Below, one piece after another: positions 6,492 to 19,197 of a DNA stretch of 64,000 bases (position 1 is the first letter of the stretch; each line of letters starts with the position of its first letter). This DNA is from an uncultured Caulobacterales bacterium (GTDB taxonomy: Bacteria > Pseudomonadota > Alphaproteobacteria > Caulobacterales > Caulobacteraceae). The stretch lies in contig CAIOJR010000084.1 of the NCBI GenBank assembly GCA_903858685.1, positions 1 through 64,000 on the forward strand, in the 5' to 3' direction. The notes below the pieces were generated by a model. The model worked only from the letters and a program-made list of their open reading frames with translations, did no database searches and had not been told where the DNA came from. The translations under genes and the position numbers were made by a program.

Positions 6492-8063
6492 TCAGACAAA
6501 GCCCAGATTACTCACCGGGAAGTTTTTCAAGTTCGGAAAAATGGTCGCCAGGGTCGCCGTATCCAGTCCAAACCACGCGCCGATCGTGGCCATATACTGG
6601 TCAACCGACGTCGTCGGGATGATCACTGAGCCCACCATGTCCGGATTGTTGAACGCGCCGCTGTCGATCCCGATGGTCGGAAACTGACCATATATGTCAC
6701 CGCCCTTGACGGCTCCCCCCATGACGAGGTGGTGGCCGCCCCAGGCATGGTCGGTGCCATCGCCGTTCGTCGCCAGGGTTCGCGAAAAATCCGAAGCCGT
6801 AAAGGTCGTGACTGCCGAGCGCATATCGTATCCGCCCATGTTTGACAGGGCCTGATCAAGATAGGCCATGGCCTGGGCAAGTTTCGCCAGATTGTTGGGC
6901 TGGTCCTGATTCTGGTTATCGTGAGTGTCGTGACCATTCATGTTCACGAAGAATACCTGCCGCGTCAGCCCAAGACTTGGCGCCGCCGCAATCAAACGCG
7001 CTACCATGTATATCTGATCGAGATAGGCGTTGCCCTCGACCTTGCCCGTGACAAAATTGGTGTAGGTGGGCTTTGCGGGCAGAGCTGTCACCGCCGCCAG
7101 GGACATGGCTCCATTGATCGAACTCACGGCGTTGATCGACCTTTGATAAACAGCGGCATAGTCGCTGCTGAAGTCAGAGGCGGCCGTCGTATCTGTCATG
7201 AGCGCCTTGATCGCCGCCGGCGCGGTGGAAGAACCGTCGTAGCTTGTCCCGGAAATTGATGAAATCGAGACCGCAGGCAGCGCCCCCGTGGTCACCTGAT
7301 ACTCAAATGTGGCGTTTCCCGACAGGAAAACCCAGTTACCGGCTGTCGATGTCGCCGTGAATATTGAATTGGCGCCATTTGACGCCACCACAGTATCGGC
7401 GAACATCCCGCCATAACCCACCTGCGTGCCTTCGATGCCCCCCGATTGCCAAGTGGATTGCTGGTCATTGTGGGAGAACAGATTTTTCGGAATGGGCACA
7501 GTGGCGTTGTAGTTGGACTTGTACTGGGCTTTCGTCGTCGGCTGAATCAGCGTTCCGACATTGGCCATCACCGCCAGTCGACCCTGATTATAGAATGGCA
7601 GGAGCGGCGCCAGCATGGGGTGCATGGCGAAGGTGCGCTGGGTGGCGTTCGTGCCTGCCGGCACAGACTGAGGCGTCTTGGGCGCGAAAGGCAAGACCCC
7701 GCCCCAGGCCGCGGGATCAGACAGGTTCGACACGGTTCTTCCCGCCACGGCGCTATATTGCCCCACAGCGGTGGCGGGCGTGCCGGGCGGCATCAGCGCA
7801 ATCGGCTGGGCGCCAATATTCCGCGTGGCGAAATAGCGACCCCAGGTGTCGGAATCCGTCGCCAGAATGGTGTTGTTGCCATCATTGCCGCCCTGCTGAA
7901 AGATGCAGACAATGGCTTTGTAATTCGGCAGCGCCGACGCGCTCGCCGCCCTGCTCACGGCCGCCAGTTGCAGGGCGATCGGCAGCCCTGTGCCCGTGAT
8001 GATGGAGGCGGCGCCGGTGAACTTCAGCAGATTGCGGCGACTGATCAGTGTGGGGCTCATCAC
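6492..8063 (-). CDS. DUF1501 family Tat-exported protein
   Basis: 523 aa. A twin-arginine signal (SRRNLLKFTGA, about residues 8-18, then a hydrophobic stretch) indicates export in folded form. The body has the DUF1501 features: FQQGGNDGNNT near the mature N-terminus, MNGHDTH, and the TASDFSRTLATNGDGTDHAWGGH block. This belongs to the alkaline-phosphatase/sulfatase-like fold group, but no specific activity has been proven for most members. It lies 6 bp downstream of the DUF1800 lipoprotein; the two families are habitual partners, so they probably act together at the cell envelope. Confidence 0.88.
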   Translation of the reverse strand: MMSPTLISRRNLLKFTGAASIITGTGLPIALQLAAVSRAASASALPNYKAIVCIFQQGGNDGNNTILATDSDTWGRYFATRNIGAQPIALMPPGTPATAVGQYSAVAGRTVSNLSDPAAWGGVLPFAPKTPQSVPAGTNATQRTFAMHPMLAPLLPFYNQGRLAVMANVGTLIQPTTKAQYKSNYNATVPIPKNLFSHNDQQSTWQSGGIEGTQVGYGGMFADTVVASNGANSIFTATSTAGNWVFLSGNATFEYQVTTGALPAVSISSISGTSYDGSSTAPAAIKALMTDTTAASDFSSDYAAVYQRSINAVSSINGAMSLAAVTALPAKPTYTNFVTGKVEGNAYLDQIYMVARLIAAAPSLGLTRQVFFVNMNGHDTHDNQNQDQPNNLAKLAQAMAYLDQALSNMGGYDMRSAVTTFTASDFSRTLATNGDGTDHAWGGHHLVMGGAVKGGDIYGQFPTIGIDSGAFNNPDMVGSVIIPTTSVDQYMATIGAWFGLDTATLATIFPNLKNFPVSNLGFV

Positions 8064-8069
8064 ATCAAC

Positions 8070-9809
8070 CTATCTTTGGGCCAGATATTCAGGCGACGCC
8101 ATGGCGATCGACACCGCCAGGCGCACGCGGGCGGTCTGCGCCGCCGTGATCTGGGCCTGGGTCGCCGTGCCGGACGGAATGGTTATGGAATTGATATTGT
8201 CGGTCAGGATTTGTTGAAGCCCAGAGGACATGGAATCATAAAACAAAAGCCTGTTTATTCTTGTGACGAGCTGAGCCGGCGTCGCACTCACGGCGATTTC
8301 ATTGCTGAACGGGATTTGAATGTCGCGTGTATTGGTCGTTGTCTGGACCGCGCCCGCGCCACTGTTGATCATGCCCAATATGGTGTTGACATAGGTCGAT
8401 ACGCTGACCTCGTTCACCACCTGAAACTCCGGCGCCGTCAGGTTGGCGGCGCCAAGCTTGCTGTTCGACGGTATGAAGCCGGGACGCCAGAAGTTGAAAA
8501 CCGTGGGACTGTTCTGCGCCCCTTCCGAAAGGGAGGTGTTGGCCGAGGTGTCGCCAACTGTCCACAGACCGGTCTGCGAGGTCGCGCCGAATGAACGCAT
8601 CAGATTGGTCATGCGGACCAGCGGCTCGCGCAGCTTGCCATAGGTTGCTGAGGTGGCGGACGGGGCGGTGCGCGCTTCGCTGTCGGTCAATATGGCGGTG
8701 ACCACCGCCGCCATATCGCCCCTCACGCCCGAGCCGTTATTGTTGAAGACGGCGGCGACGCGAGAAATATAGGCCGGACTGGGATTGGAGGTGACCAGCC
8801 GCTGGATCAGTTGGCGTCCGACGAATGGGCCGACATTGGGATGATTGAAAATCGTGTCCAGCGCCGCCTTGATATCGCCGTTCGTATCCGCAGTCGTTGA
8901 CGCCGCAATGACGCTGCCCAGAAAGTCCTTCTCCGATGTCGAGTGATACTGATTATAGGCGATCATCGGCACATATTCCGCCGTTGGATCCTTGGCGCCG
9001 CCGAAGAAAGTCGAATTGGTCGGCGCGGGCGAATAGTAGCTCAGCCCGGTGAACACCTTTGCAAGGCCTGCTATGTCAGCATGGCTGTAGGTGGAAACAG
9101 GGTTGCCGGAGCCGTCCAGCTGCTGGCTGCCGTCCTGATTTAACTTCCACAGTCCGATCGTCATCAACTGCATCAGTTCGCGGGCATAGTTCTCATCGGG
9201 CGTCTGTCCGGTGGTCAGATTTTCTTTCAGATTGCCCTGATAGGTCAGGTAATGACCCATTTGCGGACTATAGGTCACATCGTTCATCAGCGTTCGGAAG
9301 TTGCCGAACGCATCATTGCCCAGCATGTCCCAATAGACGGCCATGCCGATCGGGTCCTGATGCCCGGACTGATAGGACGTCACAAAGATTTCCGACAGAG
9401 CGAGTTGAACCCGCTGACGCAGCTGATCCGGCGCCGTCACCGCCTGCTGGAGGAAATAATTATTGCTGTAGGGCACGCCATTGAGGGAGGCCGCTGGATT
9501 GGCGGCGAGCAGCGTCGTCTTGGCGTTGGTCATGAAGCTTTGCGCAGAGCCAGTCGGGGTCTGGCTGATCTGCTGTTTGATCCAAGCGGCGTAGCCCAGT
9601 GATTGAACGCTGCTGATATCGGCGTCCGTCACGCCCATCGTCGCCTGGGTCAGGAAGCGGCTGGCGTCAGCCTCGGCGATGGGGGTTGAAGACGGGGAGG
9701 CGCCCGATCCGGAGCCCGATCCCCCGCCGCCGCCGCCGCTACATGCCACAAGAGCAAAAACGGCGGCAAAAAGGGTGACGCATTGCAGGGCTTTGTCGCG
9801 GATCAACAT
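8070..9809 (-). CDS. DUF1800 family lipoprotein
   Basis: 579 aa. A short charged N-terminus and hydrophobic core end in the lipobox LVAC, so Cys should be lipidated. A Gly/Ser-rich linker follows, then the DUF1800 domain: ASRFLTQATMGVTDADI at its start, ENYARELMQLMTIG in the middle, and NSPTVFNFWRPG near the end. The start at 9809 was chosen because GGGAAG precedes it and the signal peptide begins there; an ATG at 9869 adds 20 unlikely residues. It forms an operon with the DUF1501 gene. The biochemical role of the pair is not established. Confidence 0.88.
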   Translation of the reverse strand: MLIRDKALQCVTLFAAVFALVACSGGGGGGSGSGSGASPSSTPIAEADASRFLTQATMGVTDADISSVQSLGYAAWIKQQISQTPTGSAQSFMTNAKTTLLAANPAASLNGVPYSNNYFLQQAVTAPDQLRQRVQLALSEIFVTSYQSGHQDPIGMAVYWDMLGNDAFGNFRTLMNDVTYSPQMGHYLTYQGNLKENLTTGQTPDENYARELMQLMTIGLWKLNQDGSQQLDGSGNPVSTYSHADIAGLAKVFTGLSYYSPAPTNSTFFGGAKDPTAEYVPMIAYNQYHSTSEKDFLGSVIAASTTADTNGDIKAALDTIFNHPNVGPFVGRQLIQRLVTSNPSPAYISRVAAVFNNNGSGVRGDMAAVVTAILTDSEARTAPSATSATYGKLREPLVRMTNLMRSFGATSQTGLWTVGDTSANTSLSEGAQNSPTVFNFWRPGFIPSNSKLGAANLTAPEFQVVNEVSVSTYVNTILGMINSGAGAVQTTTNTRDIQIPFSNEIAVSATPAQLVTRINRLLFYDSMSSGLQQILTDNINSITIPSGTATQAQITAAQTARVRLAVSIAMASPEYLAQR

Positions 9810-10002
9810 TGCGGCTTCCCAGACTTGTCGCGTGGATTCGGGCGGTCGAAGTTCGCAATCGAACCTCACTTCATTCAGATATTGAAGGTCTTCGCTTAGG
9901 GTTTAAAATATGTTTATATTACATTTCGAAGGTGCAATTATTTATCTCAATATCTATTTTGGCTAATTTCAGGCAAAAATCGGTCACATTTGTGAATAAT
10001 AT
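9810..10002. promoter_or_regulatory. AT-rich intergenic region with a 12-bp palindrome
   Basis: Between the DUF1800 start and the virB11 stop, the stretch from about 9895 to 10015 is far richer in A and T than its surroundings. It should hold the promoter of the DUF1800-DUF1501 operon, although no convincing -35/-10 pair stands out. TCACATTTGTGA at 9984-9995 is a perfect palindrome resembling a CRP/FNR-family half-site arrangement, but with a 2-bp rather than 6-bp centre. Confidence 0.35.
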
Positions 10003-10968
10003 TTATTTAATCAATATATCCACGACCCTACGCCCGCCATTTACACGTTTAAGCTGGACGACCACATCAATAATTTGTCGAGCATAGGCGCGAATGTCGT
10101 CCCAACCGGCTTGTGCGCCATTCAGCAAGGCCAGCATGGCGACCTGATCCAGGGCCCCCTCGGCAGTATCTGCGTGAATGGTCGTCATGGAGCCCGGGTG
10201 GCCGGTATTAACGGCGCGCAGGAAGGTAAAGGCTTCGCCACCCCGCAATTCGCCGAGGATAATCCGGTCCGGACGCATCCTTAGCGCCGCCTGCAACAGG
10301 TCTTCAGTATCGACCTGAGCCTCGCCATTGCCCCCGCGTGTCGCAATCAGGCCGACAGCATTCTTGTGTTGCAGTCTGATTTCGGGTGCGTCTTCAATCA
10401 GAATGAGACGCTCCGTAGCTGGCGCCTCTTTGATCAGAGCGTTGAGCAAGGTCGTCTTGCCCGACGACGTCCCCCCCGAAATCATGATGGTTTGACGCAA
10501 CTCTACCGCCAGACGGAAGAAATCTTCCACCTGCCCCAGATCCAGCAAGCGCCGCAAAGCCTGTGCAGGGGGCGCCCTGTCGGCCTGCGTCAGCCCTTCG
10601 AACACCTGATGTGCGCCCAACTCCCCCAGGCACATATCCGACAGGGTATGTTTTCTCAGGGCAAGCGCGACGCCGTCACGGGTCGCAGGCGGCGCAACAA
10701 TCTGAACCCGCGATCCATCAGGCAGACTGGCCGATAAGAGCGGGGATTCACGGCTCACGCCTTGAGAACTGGCGGCGGCGATCTGGCGCGCCAAGCGGGA
10801 GATCACCAGTTCAGTCAGTTCGGGCACGGCGGCGCAGGCGGTTTGCCCCGTTGTCGTCTCCCACCAGATCTCACACGGGCGGTTGATCCAGATGTCGGTC
10901 ACGTCGGCTCTGTTCAGCCAGGGCTCCAGCGGCGCCAGATAGGAGTCCAGATAGACGCGCCCGCTCAT
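10003..10968 (-). CDS. virB11: T4SS ATPase VirB11
   Basis: 321 aa. Hexameric cytoplasmic ATPase that energises assembly and substrate passage in VirB-type type IV secretion. The Walker A motif SGGTSSGKTTLLN lies at about residues 158-170. The Asp box (LILIEDAPEI), Walker B region (MRPDRIILGELRG) and His box (TGHPGSMTTIHAD) follow in the usual order. ATGA overlap with virB10 indicates translational coupling. This is the last gene of the operon; the stop runs into an AT-rich region without a clear terminator hairpin. Confidence 0.95.
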   Translation of the reverse strand: MSGRVYLDSYLAPLEPWLNRADVTDIWINRPCEIWWETTTGQTACAAVPELTELVISRLARQIAAASSQGVSRESPLLSASLPDGSRVQIVAPPATRDGVALALRKHTLSDMCLGELGAHQVFEGLTQADRAPPAQALRRLLDLGQVEDFFRLAVELRQTIMISGGTSSGKTTLLNALIKEAPATERLILIEDAPEIRLQHKNAVGLIATRGGNGEAQVDTEDLLQAALRMRPDRIILGELRGGEAFTFLRAVNTGHPGSMTTIHADTAEGALDQVAMLALLNGAQAGWDDIRAYARQIIDVVVQLKRVNGGRRVVDILIK

Positions 10969-12092
10969 CTGGACTTGGTCATCACATCGGAGAAGTCGAG
11001 GTCACGCGCCACAAACACCCGGATAGGACTGCCCTGGGCCACGGTGATCGTATCTGGAATGTCGATCTGCTTCTGCAACGCAATGGACGCCACATTGTTC
11101 GCCTGTTGGGGCGACCCGATGACGATCGCAGTGGAGCTGTTGTTACTGCCTGAATTGGCCGTCGCATCGAGCCCCGCCGACAAGACAGACAACAGGATCG
11201 AGGCGCCAAAGCGTTTGAAGAAATGCGTATTGGTTTCGCCGTCCAGCCCGCCACGACCCAGACGGTCCGCGGCTGGCGACCCTATGTCGATGGAAATCCC
11301 CTCAGGCGTCAGAAGGCGCGACCAGACCACAAAGGCCCGCGACTGGCCCGCCGCCGCACCGCTTCTATATTGTCCGATCAGCTTTGAGCCCCTGGGGATC
11401 AGCACGCGGGTGCCGTCAAAGCCGCGCACATCGCGCGTCACCACGGCTCGGGCAAAGCCCGGCAGATCGGAATTGATCGCTGTTTCGAGAATGGCGGGAA
11501 TGACTGTGCCTTGAGGCGCGACCAGGGCAGTGTCGGACAATCGACTGGCGTGCGCGGTCTCTGCGGACGAGTCCGACACGCGTTGCGCAAACTGCTCTTC
11601 TGCTGAAAGTTTTCCCTCAGGGACCTTCTGCCCCTTGGGTCCGCCCGCCAGGGACGACAGGCTTGGCGACGGGGCTGACGCCGATGGCGCCTCCTGAGGC
11701 GCCAGATCAACCACCATGGCCGGCGCCTTCCATCGCGCCGCCAGTTCGCCATTGTCCGCCCCGGTCACAGGCGCCGCAGCCGCCATAGCCGCCGGCGGCG
11801 TCGCGGTCGCAGCCGACAGGCGGGCCACGCCGGCGTTCTGCACGGGCGATTGAGGGATCGCCCCGACCGGGCCAGGAGGCGCCGCGGGCGCCCCGGCGCT
11901 GCTGACGCCCTGGGCATGGGCGGTCCGTCCATGGCTGAGGCTGAGAAACACGCCCCCGCCCAGAAGCGCAATCGCGCAAAGCCCAGATGCGAAACCCCAT
12001 GATCCTGCTGGCCGGGCGACGACGGAACGACCATCGGCTGAGCGATCAAACACCGGGCTGTTGGGAATGGGGGAACGGGATTGCTTGCTCAC
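10965..12092 (-). CDS. virB10: T4SS core-complex protein VirB10
   Basis: 375 aa. Inner-to-outer membrane scaffold of the T4SS core complex. One N-terminal transmembrane segment (about 28-50), a Pro/Ala-rich periplasmic linker, and the conserved TrbI/VirB10 C-terminal domain (GTVIPAILETAINSDLPG, then RVLIPRGSKLIGQY and QSRAFVVWSRLLTPEG). Start is GTG, overlapping the virB9 stop as GTGA. Confidence 0.93.
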   Translation of the reverse strand: MSKQSRSPIPNSPVFDRSADGRSVVARPAGSWGFASGLCAIALLGGGVFLSLSHGRTAHAQGVSSAGAPAAPPGPVGAIPQSPVQNAGVARLSAATATPPAAMAAAAPVTGADNGELAARWKAPAMVVDLAPQEAPSASAPSPSLSSLAGGPKGQKVPEGKLSAEEQFAQRVSDSSAETAHASRLSDTALVAPQGTVIPAILETAINSDLPGFARAVVTRDVRGFDGTRVLIPRGSKLIGQYRSGAAAGQSRAFVVWSRLLTPEGISIDIGSPAADRLGRGGLDGETNTHFFKRFGASILLSVLSAGLDATANSGSNNSSTAIVIGSPQQANNVASIALQKQIDIPDTITVAQGSPIRVFVARDLDFSDVMTKSR

Positions 12093-12895
12093 GGCCGCCC
12101 CTCCTTTGCGCCCGACTGACGCGGCAAGACTGAGGCGGGACCTGGGTTGGGCCTGAACCCGTTATTGAATATCCGAGTGACCTCTGTCCCGCGCCGGAGC
12201 ACGAAACCGCGGGCGACACGGTCGACAATGACCACATCGTCTCGCAAAATCACATTCAGCACCGCTTCCTTCTTGTCATCGTCCACAGCATAGATCGCGG
12301 GCAGTTCGGCATCCTTTGGAAAGGTGAAATAGGTAGAGACCCCGTCGTCAAAGACGCGCGTGGGAAGTCCGCCCATCGCGCCTTGAAAGGCATAGGCATG
12401 GTTCCGGTCCGTGGGTGGCGGCGGCGCCGAGGGGGGCGGTTCCTCCGCCTTCATCAGCGATGCGTGCGCAACCTCGGGAAACAGGAAACGCAGGATGAAG
12501 ATGGCGCCAGTATCAGGGAGCTTGGTCGGGCGGTGAACGCGCAGGTCGAAATTGTAGGCCCGCAGATTGGTCACCACGGTCATATTGGTGGCGCTCGACT
12601 TCTCGATCGGTTTGATGAACAGCAGATTGGCCCGGCGGTTGGGCGTCACCTGCCAGCCAAGGCTGTCGCCAATCGATACGTTTTCAATGGTTTCGCCCGC
12701 CTGGAACTCAATCGTCATGGCGTAGCCCAGTCGCCCCTCCAGAAGGACGACCTCATTTGGATCATAGGCGATCTGGCGAATTCGCGGGTCGCCTGCACTG
12801 GGTGCGGGAATGACCGCAGCTACCGACGGCTGAAGGACGCAAAGGCTCAACAGCAAAATCCACAACCCGCCCAGGGTGCGAAGCGTCCTGATCAT
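12089..12895 (-). CDS. virB9: T4SS core-complex protein VirB9
   Basis: 268 aa with a signal peptide (about 1-27). Periplasmic/outer-membrane part of the core complex. The N-terminal VirB9 domain (IRQIAYDPNEV, FQAGETIENVSIGD) and the C-terminal beta-sandwich (AYAFQGAMGGLPTRVFDDG, FTFPKDAELPAIYAVD) are both intact. The start overlaps the virB6 stop as ATGA, which leaves no room for a virB8 gene at its customary place. Confidence 0.92.
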   Translation of the reverse strand: MIRTLRTLGGLWILLLSLCVLQPSVAAVIPAPSAGDPRIRQIAYDPNEVVLLEGRLGYAMTIEFQAGETIENVSIGDSLGWQVTPNRRANLLFIKPIEKSSATNMTVVTNLRAYNFDLRVHRPTKLPDTGAIFILRFLFPEVAHASLMKAEEPPPSAPPPPTDRNHAYAFQGAMGGLPTRVFDDGVSTYFTFPKDAELPAIYAVDDDKKEAVLNVILRDDVVIVDRVARGFVLRRGTEVTRIFNNGFRPNPGPASVLPRQSGAKEGRP

Positions 12896-14043
12896 GCCTG
12901 CCCCCTGCGATCAGAAATCAAACGGTCTCTGAAAGCTGACCTTTGATAGGACTCGCCCCGTCGGAACGCCGGGTCTGCAGTGTAATGGGCCGGGGCTGAA
13001 CGGGTTGTCGGCGCAGATTCTGACGCAAGGCTTGCTTGAGCAAACGCCGCGCTACGCTGCATCGCCTGCGCAATCTGGCCCGGGCGCGACAGCTGATACT
13101 GGACCGAGGCCACAGGCGCGTGCCGATCATCGGGGTGTGATGTCGCCGCCCTTCCCGGGCGTGGAAGGCGGAACCCCGCCGCGATCAGGGCCGCCGCAAC
13201 AGCCAGAACGATCTGGGCGCCGGAAAATACAAAGACCAGCAAGGTGACGGCGGACGCGACCTCAAGGTCCATCTGTCCGTCAATTCGACTTCTGGCCAAG
13301 GTTAAAAGCCAGGGCTCCATGACAATCAACATCAAGGTGATCACGATCCAGCAAGCCATCGGCATCAGCGCTGTTGCGGTCAAGGCTCGAACCCAGCCGC
13401 TAAACAGGCCCCTTGTCGCATCAAACATAAATAGGGCGATGAAGACGGGGCCGGTCGCCACCAGCACGCCCGTTGCGATGGTCGACAGGGCGAGCAGCCC
13501 TGCACTGCTCATCAGCAAGGCGTTCGCCGCCGCCCACAGGCCTTGTGACGCCCCGGCCGGACCGCCGCCCAAGGCCTGACCGTTGAGTCCGGCGACCTTT
13601 CCGAGCGCCGCCGCGTCGGCGACCAGCTGGTCATAGACCACCTGAAGCCCGCCGAGCGGGTCCTGCGCCAGAGCGCCGCCGTTCATCTGGGCAGGCTTGG
13701 CCACAATGACGGCGATCTGCAAAGGCGCCTTCATGGCCAGATCGAGAACCAGCGTCTCGAAGCTCGGCCAGTTCAGCGTCAGGGCCAGGATAGCCCCGAT
13801 CTTGATCGCCATCAGCGGCGTGGACGACAATCGAAAACCGCCCGATCCGAACAGCAACTGATATCCGACAAAGGCCACATAGAGGGTCAGCATGGCCGTC
13901 AGCGCGACCGGAAACACCGAATCAGGCCCGCTGAGCGCCAGATAGCCCAGCTTGGAATAGGTCTCGACATGGCAATCGACAGAGCGAAGCACGCCCTTGA
14001 TCACGCCAGAATGCAGATTTGCGCCGGGGCAGGAGTCGAGCAT
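12892..14043 (-). CDS. virB6: T4SS inner-membrane protein VirB6 (TrbL/VirB6 family)
   Basis: 383 aa. Polytopic inner-membrane channel component with about five to six hydrophobic segments (for example VFPVALTAMLTLYVAFVGYQ and SSAGLLALSTIATGVLVATG). The C-terminal 90 residues are polar and probably cytoplasmic. The start at 14043 shares its A with the TGA of virB4 (TGATG), which favours it over an ATG at 14085 that lies inside virB4. Polytopic T4SS proteins diverge quickly, so the name rests on topology and position as well as sequence. Confidence 0.85.
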   Translation of the reverse strand: MLDSCPGANLHSGVIKGVLRSVDCHVETYSKLGYLALSGPDSVFPVALTAMLTLYVAFVGYQLLFGSGGFRLSSTPLMAIKIGAILALTLNWPSFETLVLDLAMKAPLQIAVIVAKPAQMNGGALAQDPLGGLQVVYDQLVADAAALGKVAGLNGQALGGGPAGASQGLWAAANALLMSSAGLLALSTIATGVLVATGPVFIALFMFDATRGLFSGWVRALTATALMPMACWIVITLMLIVMEPWLLTLARSRIDGQMDLEVASAVTLLVFVFSGAQIVLAVAAALIAAGFRLPRPGRAATSHPDDRHAPVASVQYQLSRPGQIAQAMQRSAAFAQASLASESAPTTRSAPAHYTADPAFRRGESYQRSAFRDRLISDRRGQA

Positions 14044-16442
14044 CAGCGTCGGGCTCCATCGGGAGAGACCAGCCGCTTCAGCCACTGCGCCGGATCGTCG
14101 CCATATTCGGCGCGCAGCAGATCAAGTCGGCGGACCGTCCGCTCCGTCCCGGCCAGCAGGGTGAGAAACCTTGGCATGCCGTCCATGTTGAGGCGGGCCA
14201 CCGCGCTATGTCCGGGCTGCTTGATCAGAAAACAGTGGGACGTGTCCGGCAGGGTGCGGACCAGCTCGAACTCATGCCGGGAGAGTCCAAACCCTTCCAT
14301 ATATTCTGCGGCCTTCGCTTTCGGATTGGGCAGAAAGATCTGAGTGGCTGACTGCTCGATGATCGTGGCTGAAATCCGGCTTTCCAGAGCATCGCTGGCG
14401 CTTTGCGTACAGAAGCCGACAATTCCGTTGCGCTTTCGGATGGTCTTTTCCCAGTCCTTGATCCGGGCGACGAAGACGTCGTCATCGAGCGCTTTCCAGC
14501 CTTCATCCACGACAATAATGGTCGGCCGCCCATCGAGTTTTTGCTCCACACGATGGAACAGATACATCATGGCGGGCGTGCGGACGGCGGGCGTGTCCAG
14601 CAATCGGGTCATGTCCACGCCCAGAGTGTCCGTATCCAGATCCAGGCTGTCATGTTCATTATCGAACAGCCAGGCGTTCTGGCCTTCATCGCACCAGATC
14701 TGAAGGCGCGTGGCGATGTCGCCCGATCGTGGACGGCGACCGCCCAGAAACATTTCCCGCAAAAACCTGAGGCGCCTGTGCTGCACGGGCTGGTCAAAGT
14801 TCGCGTCCACGGCGTCGGCGACCAATGCGCGGTCTTCTGAGCTCAATCCCATCCCGACCAGCTGTTCGATCCAGTCGATCAGGAATGACCGATTGGCCGG
14901 CGTGTCCGGCATTTGAAGGGGGTTGAGCCCCGTAGGCTCGCCAGGACGCAGGGCCTCATATCGCCCTCGCAGGGCGCGGATGAAGATTTCCGCCCCGCGA
15001 TCCTTGTCGAAATAGACGAGGCGCGGATTGAATTTGGTAGCCTGAGACAGAAGGAAGGTCAGAAGAACCGTCTTCCCCGACCCACTTGGCCCGATCATGG
15101 TGAAATTGCCCAGATCACCATTGTGGAAGTTGAAATAGTAGCGGCCATGCGCCGTTGTCTCGAGAACCGTGACCGCCTCGCCCCAGTGATTGCCGTGAGG
15201 CTGACCGGTGGCGAAATTGTGCAGTGAGGCGAAGCTCGAAAAGTTCGCGACAGAGATCAGCGCCTTGCGGGCAATATACTGAAAGTTCCCCGGAAACTGC
15301 GCCCAGTAGGCGGGTTCCAGGTTGATGTCTTCACGCACGGCGATGGCGCCGACATCGGTCATGGCGGACTGAACATCGGCGACCGCGGTGTCCAGCTCCG
15401 AAAGACTGTCGGCCTTGACCAGAATGGTCAGATGATGCTCGCCATAGGCCGATCGCCCCGCACCGACCCCGTCGCGGGCGGACGCCAGTTCATCGCGAAG
15501 CGAATAGGCCTCGTCTTCCGCAGCGCGGAGCCGGCGCATGGCGACGCCGATGCGCTCCAGAGACGATTGCCGGTCCACAAACGCGAAGCTCTCGGACAGG
15601 ATCAGGGCGTGGGGGAGCCGCATGACCATGTCGAGCATTCCCGGCGCCGAGCGGGCCGGGTAGTCCTTGAGCGACACCATGGCGGCGAACTGACTGTCGG
15701 GCGCACCCGGCGTGCCAATCTCGATCGCATCGGGCCCGAATGTCAGGCGTCGCGTCGCCAGAGCCTGACCAATATCACCGGCCGGGGTCAGGACCGGCCG
15801 CATATCCCCGTAAAGCAGCGAGGCGAGAAATGCGCACGGTTCGGAAAACGCCGCTCCGTCCCGTTCATAGACTTCCAGCGCTCTGGCCCCATAGGGCGAC
15901 AGGGCCGCAATGATCCGCTCACGCAACGCGTGAAGGCCTCGCAAGTCTTCCGAAGAGGCCATGCTGCGCCCGCCGACGCCGCGCAGCAGGCGCTCAGCAA
16001 AACCAGCCTTGCCCTGAAGCGGACGCCTGACCAGAGTGAGATAAAGGTCGTTGACGAACATTTTTCGGCGGCCAAGCTGGGCCGACCAGGCGCGGTTCAA
16101 CGCCCTGCATACGGGATCGGCAGGCTCCGTCCCCAGATCGACATCCACCCTTCGCCGCACGATGTGATGATAGAGCGCCAGCCGGGAATTGGCGGCGCTG
16201 CGCAGCAGAGTCTCCCGCACCTGCTTGCGATAGTTCAGTTCTTCGTCCGGCGCGGTTTCGAAGGGAAAGCCATCGATCCTGATCACCTGAACCAGAAGAC
16301 CGTCGCGGGTTTCCAGGGTGAGATGATCCAGGTGGCGCGCGAAGTTCAGCCGGTCCCCGATCCGGGCCTCGCGCAGGCCCAGCCTCAGGGCGCGATCGCG
16401 ACTGACATATCCAGCGCCGACCGCGTTTGGGTCACGGAGCAT
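14043..16442 (-). CDS. virB4: T4SS ATPase VirB4
   Basis: 799 aa, the usual size. The largest ATPase of VirB-type secretion, at the cytoplasmic face of the inner membrane. The N-terminal CagE/TrbE/VirB domain is followed by Walker A (MIGPSGSGKTVLL, about 444-456) and Walker B (TIIVVDEGWKAL, about 640-651). The ATG at 16442 overlaps the end of virB3 by 11 bp. Confidence 0.95.
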   Translation of the reverse strand: MLRDPNAVGAGYVSRDRALRLGLREARIGDRLNFARHLDHLTLETRDGLLVQVIRIDGFPFETAPDEELNYRKQVRETLLRSAANSRLALYHHIVRRRVDVDLGTEPADPVCRALNRAWSAQLGRRKMFVNDLYLTLVRRPLQGKAGFAERLLRGVGGRSMASSEDLRGLHALRERIIAALSPYGARALEVYERDGAAFSEPCAFLASLLYGDMRPVLTPAGDIGQALATRRLTFGPDAIEIGTPGAPDSQFAAMVSLKDYPARSAPGMLDMVMRLPHALILSESFAFVDRQSSLERIGVAMRRLRAAEDEAYSLRDELASARDGVGAGRSAYGEHHLTILVKADSLSELDTAVADVQSAMTDVGAIAVREDINLEPAYWAQFPGNFQYIARKALISVANFSSFASLHNFATGQPHGNHWGEAVTVLETTAHGRYYFNFHNGDLGNFTMIGPSGSGKTVLLTFLLSQATKFNPRLVYFDKDRGAEIFIRALRGRYEALRPGEPTGLNPLQMPDTPANRSFLIDWIEQLVGMGLSSEDRALVADAVDANFDQPVQHRRLRFLREMFLGGRRPRSGDIATRLQIWCDEGQNAWLFDNEHDSLDLDTDTLGVDMTRLLDTPAVRTPAMMYLFHRVEQKLDGRPTIIVVDEGWKALDDDVFVARIKDWEKTIRKRNGIVGFCTQSASDALESRISATIIEQSATQIFLPNPKAKAAEYMEGFGLSRHEFELVRTLPDTSHCFLIKQPGHSAVARLNMDGMPRFLTLLAGTERTVRRLDLLRAEYGDDPAQWLKRLVSPDGARR

Positions 16443-16716
16443 AGGAGTTGGCGCCCCACAGGCGATAATTCGGGGCGCGCGGGCATCGGCTGACCTTCGT
16501 CATCCACAGGTCAAAGAACCGCGGCTCATGAAGACAGCCAAGATATCCGATGATGTGGACAATAGCGGCGACACCCAGAGTGTAGAAGGATTTGGAAATC
16601 AGAAACGCTTCAATGGTCACGATCAGATTGAAAACAGCATAGCTGTAGGTCACCCCGCCAATCATCTGAGGACGGGTCAGGGCGGAAAAAATCGGATCGG
16701 ACACGAGGTCGCTCAT
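16432..16716 (-). CDS. virB3: T4SS protein VirB3
   Basis: 94 aa, typical of VirB3. Small inner-membrane protein with two adjacent hydrophobic segments (about 22-60) after a conserved start (DPIFSALTRPQMIGGVTY). It works with VirB4 and VirB6 in pilus and channel assembly. Four bases separate it from virB2. Confidence 0.9.
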   Translation of the reverse strand: MSDLVSDPIFSALTRPQMIGGVTYSYAVFNLIVTIEAFLISKSFYTLGVAAIVHIIGYLGCLHEPRFFDLWMTKVSRCPRAPNYRLWGANSYAP

Positions 16717-16720
16717 CGCC

Positions 16721-17020
16721 TCACCTCAGACCTGTGGCGATGCTGCGCATGCCAGCGACAATGGCGGCGGCGCCAAAGATGATGAAAGCCCCCAGAACGA
16801 CCGTCAGGCCGCGCTTCCAGTCAATTCTTCCGGTCAACATCATGAGGCCGACGACCGCGACAGCGATGACCGCCGCCGTCGTCGCCAGATTGCCCAGCAA
16901 CGTGCCTTCAATCCAGTTGAGCGCGCCAAGGATGGGGCCAGACCCAGCCGGATCGGCAAGCGCGACCCCCGGCAGGGCGGACATCAGAGCAATCAACCGC
17001 GCCTTGGTGAGAGTTTTCAT
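16721..17020 (-). CDS. virB2: T4SS major pilin VirB2
   Basis: 99 aa. Pilin precursor with a signal sequence (about 1-22, cleaved near ALA) and two hydrophobic segments in the mature part (TAAVIAVAVVGLMMLTG and VVLGAFIIFGAAAIVAG) joined by a short basic loop. This is the architecture of VirB2/TrbC pilins. ATGA overlap with the upstream virB1 gene couples translation. Confidence 0.9.
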   Translation of the reverse strand: MKTLTKARLIALMSALPGVALADPAGSGPILGALNWIEGTLLGNLATTAAVIAVAVVGLMMLTGRIDWKRGLTVVLGAFIIFGAAAIVAGMRSIATGLR

Positions 17021-17649
17021 GGATTGACCCGGAAATGTTCAGAAGTTGAGAAGTCCGCCTCGGCCGCCAGTCTCGCCAGGATATCGGCGACATATTTCTG
17101 TGTTTCGGGAAAGGGCGGCACCCCGTGATACCGATCCACCGCCGCAGGGCTGGCATTGTAGGCGGCCAGAGTTTTGACGATGTCCCCGTCATAGCGTTCC
17201 AGCAGGCGTCGCAGATAATGGGCCCCGCCGGATACGTTCTCCCCGACATCGGCCGGATCAACGCCCAGCCCCTTCGCCGTCGCGGGCATCAACTGCATCA
17301 CGCCGACCGCGCCCTTGGGCGACAGGGCGTTGGGATTGAAGCGGGATTCCTCCCAGGCGACGGCTTCGATCAGACGGGGATTGATCGCCACCCTGTCGCC
17401 TGCCCGCCTGATGAACGCATGGACCTCTGTCGATTTCGCGTTTTGTTGCGCTTGCCGTGGAACGGCTTCAATCGGTTTCGAGACGATAGCCGTCCCCGCA
17501 GAGCCAAGCTGGGTCACGACGGCTGGGCGGTCATGCACAATGACAGCGCCGTCCGGGGATATTTCCAGAACCGTCGCCTGGCCCGGCCCCGCCAGCGCAC
17601 ACATGGCCATGACCATGGCGCTGAAGCAATTGGGCGAAAGACCAGCCAA
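17017..17649 (-). CDS. virB1: T4SS lytic transglycosylase VirB1
   Basis: 210 aa. Periplasmic muramidase that opens peptidoglycan for the secretion machine. A hydrophobic leader (about 8-22) is followed by a spacer and the SLT domain: EAVAWEESRFNPNALS with Glu101 as catalytic acid, then GAVGVMQLMPATA and the later GGAHYLRRLLERY and LAAYNASPAAVDRY motifs. The start is TTG at 17649 with GGAGAG about seven bases before it; internal ATGs near codons 12-15 would truncate the leader. First gene of the virB operon. Confidence 0.92.
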   Translation of the reverse strand: MAGLSPNCFSAMVMAMCALAGPGQATVLEISPDGAVIVHDRPAVVTQLGSAGTAIVSKPIEAVPRQAQQNAKSTEVHAFIRRAGDRVAINPRLIEAVAWEESRFNPNALSPKGAVGVMQLMPATAKGLGVDPADVGENVSGGAHYLRRLLERYDGDIVKTLAAYNASPAAVDRYHGVPPFPETQKYVADILARLAAEADFSTSEHFRVNP

Positions 17650-17951: not shown

Positions 17952-18074
17952 ATGCGCCTGCAATTTCTCACTGGCGGCGACCTGGCGGTGACGGTTTCAG
18001 GGGTAAAATCCGAAACAGGCCGACTGGCCTGGGCGCCGTTTTCGGATGCGACAGAGTGTCTGCCCGGCCAATGA
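17952..18074 (+). CDS. 40-codon leader ORF, possible DUF2141 remnant
   Basis: ATG at 17952; stops at TGA 18072-18074, which overlaps the ATG of the TetR gene as ATGA. The placement directly after the operator and the overlap suggest it is translated and coupled to the regulator. The peptide contains LAVTVSGVKSETG, which resembles the first strand pair of DUF2141 proteins, after which the similarity stops. It may be a truncated gene start now used as a leader, or a chance resemblance. No signal peptide is visible. Confidence 0.4.
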   Translation: MRLQFLTGGDLAVTVSGVKSETGRLAWAPFSDATECLPGQ

Positions 18075-18718
18075 CCGCCGCCTCTGGACGCGCCGAAGAC
18101 CTGCGAGAGGCCTGTATCGCACAAGCCCTCCACATCATTGACGAAATTGGACTGGAACGCCTGAGCATGAGAGATGTGGCCCGCCGCCTCGGCGTGTCCC
18201 ACCAGGCGCCTTACAAGCACTTCAAGAGCCGCGATCACATTCTGGCGGAGATCATTCGAAGGGCCTTCGACGATTTTGCAGACGCCTTGCGCGCCCGCGT
18301 CAGGAGCGACAATCCGGCGGCGGACTTCTACGCCATGGGCGTGGCCTATATCGCGTTTGCGCAGGCGCGCCCGCTCTATTACCGACTGATGTTCGCCAGC
18401 ACCCTGCCCGAACCCGAGCAGCACCCGCAGATGATGATAAGCGCCAGGTGCGCCTATGGCCTGCTGCGCGACGGCGTCCAGGTGCTGTTTGCGGCGCGGG
18501 GAAGCCCCCTCTCCCCCTCTGAACTTGACCTTGAGGCGCTTTTTGCCTGGTCGAGCCTGCATGGCTCCGTCAGCCTGTTGCGAACGGACGCCCTGACGCC
18601 GCTCGATCTGGCCCCGCAAACGCGCCAGAGACTGGCGCATCATGCACTGGACCGCATCGGCGCGGCCTTTCTCCTCACACCCCCGGCGGCCGCCCCACCC
18701 GAGGAAGACGCACAATGA
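18071..18718 (+). CDS. TetR-family transcriptional regulator
   Basis: 215 aa. N-terminal TetR helix-turn-helix (MRDVARRLGVSHQAPYKHF, about residues 33-51) followed by an all-helical ligand-binding domain with a W-(S)-S-L-HG motif near residue 160, as in the WHG/TetR_C_33-type C-terminal domains. The start at 18071 overlaps the leader ORF stop; an ATG five codons earlier (18056) is possible. Its end overlaps the DUF4188 gene (ATGA), so regulator and target form one operon, probably under negative autoregulation by the palindrome upstream. Confidence 0.88.
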   Translation: MTAASGRAEDLREACIAQALHIIDEIGLERLSMRDVARRLGVSHQAPYKHFKSRDHILAEIIRRAFDDFADALRARVRSDNPAADFYAMGVAYIAFAQARPLYYRLMFASTLPEPEQHPQMMISARCAYGLLRDGVQVLFAARGSPLSPSELDLEALFAWSSLHGSVSLLRTDALTPLDLAPQTRQRLAHHALDRIGAAFLLTPPAAAPPEEDAQ

Positions 18719-19197
18719 CAGACATCCGCAAAGGACGCTGGACAGCAAGACATGATGAGCCATTTGTCGTGTTCATCATCGGCATGCGCATCAACAAGCT
18801 ATGGAAGGTCCACAAATGGTTTCCGCTTGTCGTGGCCATGACCAACATGCTCAGAGAGCTGTACCCGCGACCGGATCTGGGTTTCATGGGCGCCAAGACC
18901 TGGTTCGGGCGCACCATTGTCGTGATCCAGTATTGGAAATCGTTTGAGGATCTGGAAACCTACGCAAAGGCGCGCGACAAGGTCCATCTGCCCGCCTGGG
19001 CGGCGTTCAACCGCGCCATCGGCAATAATGGCGATGTGGGAATCTATCACGAAACCTACAGCATCGCGCCGGGTCAATATGAGAACATCTATGTCAACAT
19101 GCCGCCGACCCTGCTCGGCTCCACAACAACGGTCGAGGCGGCGCGTGGGCGCAACACGTCTGCGCGCGGCCGAATGGCGACGCCGTCATCGATCTGA
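18715..19197 (+). CDS. DUF4188 family protein
   Basis: 160 aa. Recognisable DUF4188 features: FVVFIIGMRINKLWKVHKW at about 18-36, GFMGAKTWFGR and IVVIQYWKSFEDLETYA. The family has a ferredoxin-like alpha/beta-barrel look and some members are annotated as monooxygenase-like or heme-related, but no activity is established. No transmembrane segment or signal. Co-transcribed with and probably controlled by the TetR protein. About the last 20 residues are low-complexity and not family-like. Confidence 0.75.
   Translation: MTDIRKGRWTARHDEPFVVFIIGMRINKLWKVHKWFPLVVAMTNMLRELYPRPDLGFMGAKTWFGRTIVVIQYWKSFEDLETYAKARDKVHLPAWAAFNRAIGNNGDVGIYHETYSIAPGQYENIYVNMPPTLLGSTTTVEAARGRNTSARGRMATPSSI

Follow-up and report, generated by a model that had tools for sequence, protein, structure and literature searches.

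The 64,000-nucleotide stretch analysed here, called the window hereafter, covers positions 1 to 64,000 (forward strand) of contig CAIOJR010000084.1 from an uncultured Caulobacterales bacterium of the family Caulobacteraceae (assembly GCA_903858685.1). On its reverse strand, from 17649 to 10003, it carries an intact virB1-2-3-4-6-9-10-11 operon of a type IV secretion system (T4SS), each of the eight genes matching the expected Pfam family (Table 1). Junction lengths taken from open reading frame (ORF) coordinates show tight coupling: virB1 and virB2 overlap by 4 nt, virB2 and virB3 are separated by 4 nt, virB3 and virB4 overlap by 11 nt, and virB4 and virB6 overlap by 1 nt (TGATG, with the ATG at 14043), or by 43 nt if virB6 is given its longest ORF, which starts at an upstream GTG and extends to 14085. 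Further along the operon, virB6 and virB9 (ATGA), virB9 and virB10, and virB10 and virB11 all overlap by 4 nt. An earlier note on this DNA had described this gene order and its coupling, the direct joining of virB6 to virB9 where virB8 would usually lie, and an operon lacking virD4. The Pfam matches, the ORF coordinates and the junction sequence bear out the first two points, and no VirD4 accompanies the operon in the window. There is no space in the operon for virB5 or virB8, and none inside it for virB7 (no genome-wide VirB7 search was made). Of the features that define VirB (MPF_T, type IVA) systems, the operon has a VirB4-family ATPase together with VirB3, VirB6, VirB9, VirB10 and VirB11 encoded in one operon; VirB8, a VirD4 with the system and a VirB5 between virB4 and virB6 are absent.

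Table 1. Genes of the virB operon and the two genes that follow it on the same strand of the window.
Feature	Position	Strand	Product length	Profile match and remarks
virB1-like lytic transglycosylase	17017..17649	-	210 aa	PF01464 SLT, E=2.1e-24; TTG start as listed
virB2 pilin	16721..17020	-	99 aa	PF04956 TrbC, E=1.1e-18
virB3	16432..16716	-	94 aa	PF05101 (VirB3), E=2.1e-26
virB4 ATPase	14043..16442	-	799 aa	PF03135 CagE_TrbE_VirB, E=7.8e-42
virB6	12892..14043	-		PF04610 TrbL, E=7.8e-23; from ATG at 14043
virB9	12089..12895	-	268 aa	PF03524 CagX, E=5.6e-54; TIGR02781 VirB9 above cut-off
virB10	10965..12092	-	375 aa	PF03743 TrbI, E=3.5e-58; NF038091 T4SS_VirB10 above cut-off
virB11 ATPase	10003..10968	-	321 aa	PF00437 T2SSE, E=3.3e-35
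DUF1800 protein	8070..9869	-	599 aa as listed	PF08811, E=2e-82; T4SS-linked subfamily A1
DUF1501 protein	6492..8063	-	523 aa	PF07394, E=6.9e-38; Tat-like N-terminus (SRRNLLK)

The virB8-less, virB5-less order is intact and conserved across many genera. We compared 74 loci including the window, some of them hand-picked from the list of VirB4 matches and not drawn at random: virB8 is absent from 48, present in 22 (18 sister operons and 4 outgroup loci), and cannot be called in 4. Where virB8 is lacking (47 loci), the virB6-virB9 interval from stop codon to stop codon spans 743-848 nt; the 18 sisters, which have virB8, show 1444-1711 nt, and the outgroup (4 loci) 1710-1794 nt. For virB4-virB6 the corresponding interval spans 1130-1367 nt across 66 in-group loci and 1763-1969 nt in the outgroup, and virB5 is therefore absent from the whole in-group. 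Five loci had been dropped before these counts: L064, L071 and L075, judged to be duplicates of L087, L092 and L108, L079 (25% identity) and L005 (3.1 kb). Related VirB4 genes occur in 18 named loci. At 63-68% identity there are 16 of them, and 14 of the 16 are labelled Phenylobacterium, Caulobacteraceae or Caulobacterales, in line with a Caulobacteraceae host. A class-wide search of 385 genomes gave 12 with a match at an E value of 1e-150 or below. Among the 10 of these matches that lie outside the family, L145-L149 (52-53% identity, two other families) are also virB8-less, and L150 (45% identity) has virB8 and VirD4; L151-L154 (40-44% identity), in which virB9 was not found with the profiles used, were left out of the counts. 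We are highly confident that an intact VirB lineage without virB8 exists. The reduced secretion machine that the earlier note had suggested thus stands as far as its anatomy is concerned, while its mechanism is what we infer.

In VirB4 trees the virB8-less loci fall into three groups, one of which is nested among virB8-bearing operons. A 35-row VirB4 tree needs three virB8 changes; over 200 bootstrap trees the number is 3 at both the 5% and the 95% marks, and no tree could be explained with one. Moreover, a single virB8-less clade is rejected by the approximately unbiased (AU) test (p-AU 0.000427), and it is therefore likely that virB8 was lost three separate times. The tree by itself cannot separate gain from loss; the root was placed with the help of virB8-bearing relatives in which the virB5 position has room for a gene. 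Three losses are then the simplest account, because the outgroup root carries virB8 and the sister operons keep it at its usual place. One genome (G160) holds one operon of each kind.

Downstream of virB11, after a gap of 133 nt (ORFs as listed), a gene for a DUF1800 protein and then one for a DUF1501 protein follow on the same strand. The DUF1800 protein has a lipobox-like N-terminal region (..FALVACSGGG) and was classed as "lipo" by our export heuristic. The twin-arginine start of the DUF1501 protein was read by eye, the heuristic not having called this protein exported. Of the 74 loci, 21-22 have the pair beside the operon, in four relative arrangements. DUF1800 genes of any kind are low-copy (present in 156 of 199 genomes, mostly in 1-4 copies). 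The T4SS-type subfamily is found in 78 of the 199 (A1 match at E of roughly 5e-135 or lower; 89 genomes match at E 1e-20), and 75 of these 78 genomes also have this VirB4, which occurs without a T4SS-type DUF1800 in 29 genomes. Of 112 VirB4 places, 34 have a T4SS-type DUF1800 gene no more than 12 kb away, against 0.4-1.0 expected by chance if genome sizes of 2.5, 4 and 6 Mb are assumed and kinship, which the DUF1800 counts ignore, is left aside. The place and genome lists behind the co-occurrence counts for DUF1800, VirB4 and the f12 family (below) were compiled by hand, VirB4 being counted from listed matches that scored about 670 bits or higher. T4SS-type DUF1800 is also more frequent in genomes without any match to PF04335, the VirB8 family (29 of 40), than in virB8-bearing ones (3 of 18); the virB8-bearing genomes were chosen manually, with G034 included on account of its tree position and of a PF04335 match found on a different contig, and the Fisher test was run without G160, a carrier of both operon kinds. 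Structure and sequence searches returned little: the DUF1800 model had no PDB match better than E=0.56, the DUF1800 sequence no convincing match (best E 0.047, judged chance), and DUF1501 no match at E up to 0.1. One genome (G114) has eight DUF1800 copies, six of them of the T4SS-linked subfamily, with two of them close together on contig C115.

With both ATPases, VirB6 and the VirB9/VirB10 core kept and VirD4 and VirB8 gone, this machine would best serve cargo that takes a route other than the one from the cytoplasm via VirD4. Since the Tat-like signal of DUF1501 and the lipobox of DUF1800 fit delivery to the periplasm first, we propose a two-step export. Substrates would first cross the inner membrane by the Sec or the twin-arginine translocation (Tat) pathway, and the VirB6-9-10 complex, powered by VirB4 and VirB11, would then move them across the outer envelope, which would make VirD4 and a VirB8-dependent passage through the inner membrane unneeded. 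The likeliest cargo or dedicated partners would be the products of the two genes behind virB11, the lipoprotein-like DUF1800 protein and the DUF1501 protein with its Tat-like signal, and VirB8 would be dispensable, not replaced. DUF1501 proteins of chitin-synthase operons are reported to have a twin-arginine motif, and a functional link of both DUFs with chitin synthase has been proposed (PMC5122149). In favour of the two-step proposal are the intact order without space for virB8, the components free of added domains, the missing VirB8-family and VirD4 matches in other genomes, the link of T4SS-type DUF1800 with this VirB4, and the exported look of other recurrent neighbours, namely the f12/f11 pair described below and the RHS proteins with a signal-like start beside two sister operons. 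We put forward only tentatively the proposal that the reduced Caulobacteraceae machine works in this way without VirB8, VirB5 and VirD4. A wider evolutionary version seems to us possible but rather doubtful: VirB8 would become dispensable once the cargo stops coming from the cytoplasm, and second-step exporters of Sec/Tat proteins would have lost VirB5, VirD4 and then, three times, VirB8.

Several observations weigh against the two-step proposal. Gene adjacency is by itself no demonstration of secretion, and the pertussis toxin exporter Ptl moves periplasmic cargo yet retains a VirB8 homologue. The tie between virB8 absence and DUF1800 rests on related genomes, among which there are only 3 independent pairs, too few for testing. 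T4SS-type DUF1800 is also missing from 11 of the 40 genomes without PF04335, and the virB8-bearing operons L119 and L121 adjoin such a gene. The wider neighbourhood is equivocal as well. Exported-looking products are enriched next to the operons when genes are counted (109/220 vs 69/204, p=0.001), but we do not take this as proof because the difference is not significant per family (42/110 vs 52/161, p=0.36); moreover, 9 of 68 loci have no exported-looking neighbour, and the heuristic is loose, calling 34% of distal genes exported and missing the DUF1501 protein of the window. A second recurrent pair, a lipoprotein-like gene (f12) and a TonB-dependent receptor gene (f11), flanks 14 of the 74 loci as well as 3 of 3 loci of another family. 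The f12 family (L073:6996-8546 and relatives, alignment A3) has no Pfam match and lies beside virB8-less operons in two families; however, f12 is present in 85 of 199 genomes and 36 of the 85 are without this VirB4, which weakens f12/f11 as a T4SS-specific pair. Finally, chitin-synthase operons also hold DUF1501/DUF1800 pairs (PMC5122149).

The two proteins might instead be periplasmic or surface accessory parts that stabilise the machine or replace what is missing from it, for instance in the roles of VirB7 or VirB8, and not cargo. The low copy number of the linked DUF1800 subfamily, its near-confinement to genomes with this VirB4 and the place of the pair right after virB11 would all suit such parts, and the DUF1800 fold is neutral because there is no usable PDB match. 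An accessory part would nevertheless hardly be expected to be missing from the 11 genomes just mentioned, to lie beyond 12 kb at 78 of the 112 VirB4 places, or to adjoin some operons that have their virB8, and we consider this reading unlikely.

The retained components themselves offered no compensating change. Their lengths, compared with those of the virB8-bearing sisters, reveal no gained domain, the largest gain being 12 residues at the end of VirB4 in group A (longer VirB9 starts in three group B rows were taken for longest-ORF artefacts and set aside), and a VirB8 domain hidden in another component was discarded on this ground. Differences in the VirB10 linker fall in low-complexity sequence. 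Two residue differences were also dropped, VirB11 N160T failing in group B and VirB4 341L being the outgroup state as well. The model of VirB6 (397-aa form; mean predicted local distance difference test score, pLDDT, 80, with a low-confidence tail) contains no strands, and a VirB8-like domain concealed in VirB6 therefore seems unlikely. The VirB6 family of the window has a conserved N-terminal Cys pair, of which C38 is invariant and C19 nearly so in 29 rows.

A divergent VirB8 that escapes recognition could also be encoded elsewhere and act in trans. The earlier note had allowed for a VirB8 encoded elsewhere and had suggested genome searches for VirB8 and VirD4. In the genome of the window these returned a single PF04335 match, a TrbF-like gene on contig C66 whose surroundings we read as trbL-trbF-trbG-trbI, and a single PF02534 (VirD4) match on C192, away from the operon, which is itself the sole PF03135 (VirB4) match. 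The genes on C66 and C192 look like a separate conjugation system. TrbF acting in trans is rejected as a general answer because other operon-carrying genomes have no PF04335 match at all: such a match is missing from 40 of the 104 family genomes with this VirB4 type, and the sample includes five further genomes of the window's genus, every one with the VirB4 gene and without a match to PF04335. Of 25 virB8-less genomes, 19 gave no VirD4 match. A profile (A2) was built from the sister-operon VirB8 proteins, whose conservation is good (42-75% identity to the first alignment row). Of the 18 genomes searched with it, 15 gave no match even at E=10; it matched in G160, which has a virB8-bearing operon, in G151, beside a different VirB4, and in G171 at chance level. 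The profile also missed the TrbF-like protein on C66, and such limits of profile searching speak for an overlooked VirB8. Against it, the same operon position is empty in all three groups with nothing inserted, and none of the 28 representatives of recurrent flank families that we looked at was recognised as VirB8-like. A recognisable VirB8 encoded elsewhere thus finds no support, and we regard a divergent one as improbable.

Less probable still is a transporter of DNA or cytoplasmic proteins that works without a coupling protein, by ComB-like uptake or DNA release. VirD4-less VirB systems for DNA uptake do exist, ComB being one, but ComB needs its VirB8 homologue, and the two commonest flank pairs look exported. 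No relaxase was recognised among the 28 flank-family representatives, although no search aimed at relaxases or competence families was made. Decay, the last alternative, could account for the missing parts but is very improbable, as the frames of the window are open with none of the frameshifts that the earlier note had named as a sign of it, the order is kept in 48 virB8-less loci and in 5 outside the family, and an internal stop interrupts only two (G141 and G144) of the VirB4 places listed at 52% identity or above.

Some features around these operons are worth recording. A TetR-family regulator (18056-18718, plus strand) lies upstream of the operon in the window and is followed by an ORF at 18715-19197, both of which look unrelated to it. 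In L088 and L089, virB1 is found on the opposite strand downstream of virB11 and not at the operon start. RHS-repeat proteins adjoin virB5-less, virB8-bearing sister operons (L112:3722-6379, L112:15400-17724, L135:1447-5778 and NZ_CP098765.1, L155:3372-6245); a Sphingomonas aerolata plasmid is among the places where an RHS protein lies beside a sister operon with virB8. Those of L112 and L135 have a signal-like start and one RHS protein has a Tox-GHH nuclease domain; they may be polymorphic toxins that are exported and associated with a VirB machine. Six virB8-bearing sister operons (L109, L110, L111, L113, L124 and L132) have a DUF4331 gene beside them, and four of these six loci also have a HupE/UreJ-like gene (name read from sequence). 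A search for XVIPCD effectors matched none of 16 genomes, the 14 control genomes being equally silent. For the window operon, the contact-dependent effectors that the earlier note had considered stay a mere suggestion.

VirB8 is regarded as one of the core assembly factors of VirB systems. A lineage that has seemingly lost it three times, with the ATPases, VirB6 and the VirB9/VirB10 core kept, is a natural experiment on the role of VirB8, and the system may also give a handle on the function of DUF1800 and DUF1501, which PMC6653060 names in a list of orphan genes associated with the type VI secretion system. A tractable organism may carry such a system, since the control genome of Caulobacter vibrioides has VirB4-family and DUF1800 matches and no VirB8 or VirD4 match. 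In searches of an open-access library we recognised no description of a VirB8-less T4SS lineage. A missing VirB8 in two genomes is already on record: the T4SS of Erythrobacter litoralis HTCC2594 and Erythrobacter sp. NAP1 are marked "Lacks VirB8" in a footnote to Table 1 of a 2009 paper (PMC2702493). Two VirB systems of Phenylobacterium zucineum, one on a plasmid and one on the chromosome, are tabulated with VirB8 (PMC2529317). The Erythrobacter systems resemble the window type to the extent that they are reported, in that footnote, as VirB systems without VirB8.

The closest comparison is with the sister operons (L108-L113, L119-L126, L130-L132, L135 and L155, from Caulobacteraceae and the Sphingomonas aerolata plasmid), which belong to the same VirB4 clade, have the same order and likewise lack virB5, but keep virB8 and in some cases adjoin RHS or DUF4331 genes. 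With VirB/D4 systems of type IVA (MPF_T), such as Agrobacterium VirB and plasmid Trw, the window operon shares VirB1-4, 6, 9, 10 and 11 in canonical order; in contrast to them it is without virB5, virB7, virB8 and virD4, and most of the virB8-less genomes tested have no VirD4 match. The X-T4SS of Xanthomonadales kill bacteria and use VirD4 and XVIPCD effectors. Both they and the operons described here are VirB systems apparently not devoted to conjugation, and they differ in that VirD4 was not found in those 19 of 25 virB8-less genomes. The Ptl-type exporter is VirD4-less, takes a periplasmic substrate and keeps a VirB8 homologue, whereas no VirB8 was recognised in the window system. In both, no VirD4 comes with the operon (the genome of the window having its VirD4 match on C192), and by analogy with Ptl the cargo of the window system would reach the periplasm first, the DUF1800 and DUF1501 proteins being the candidates.

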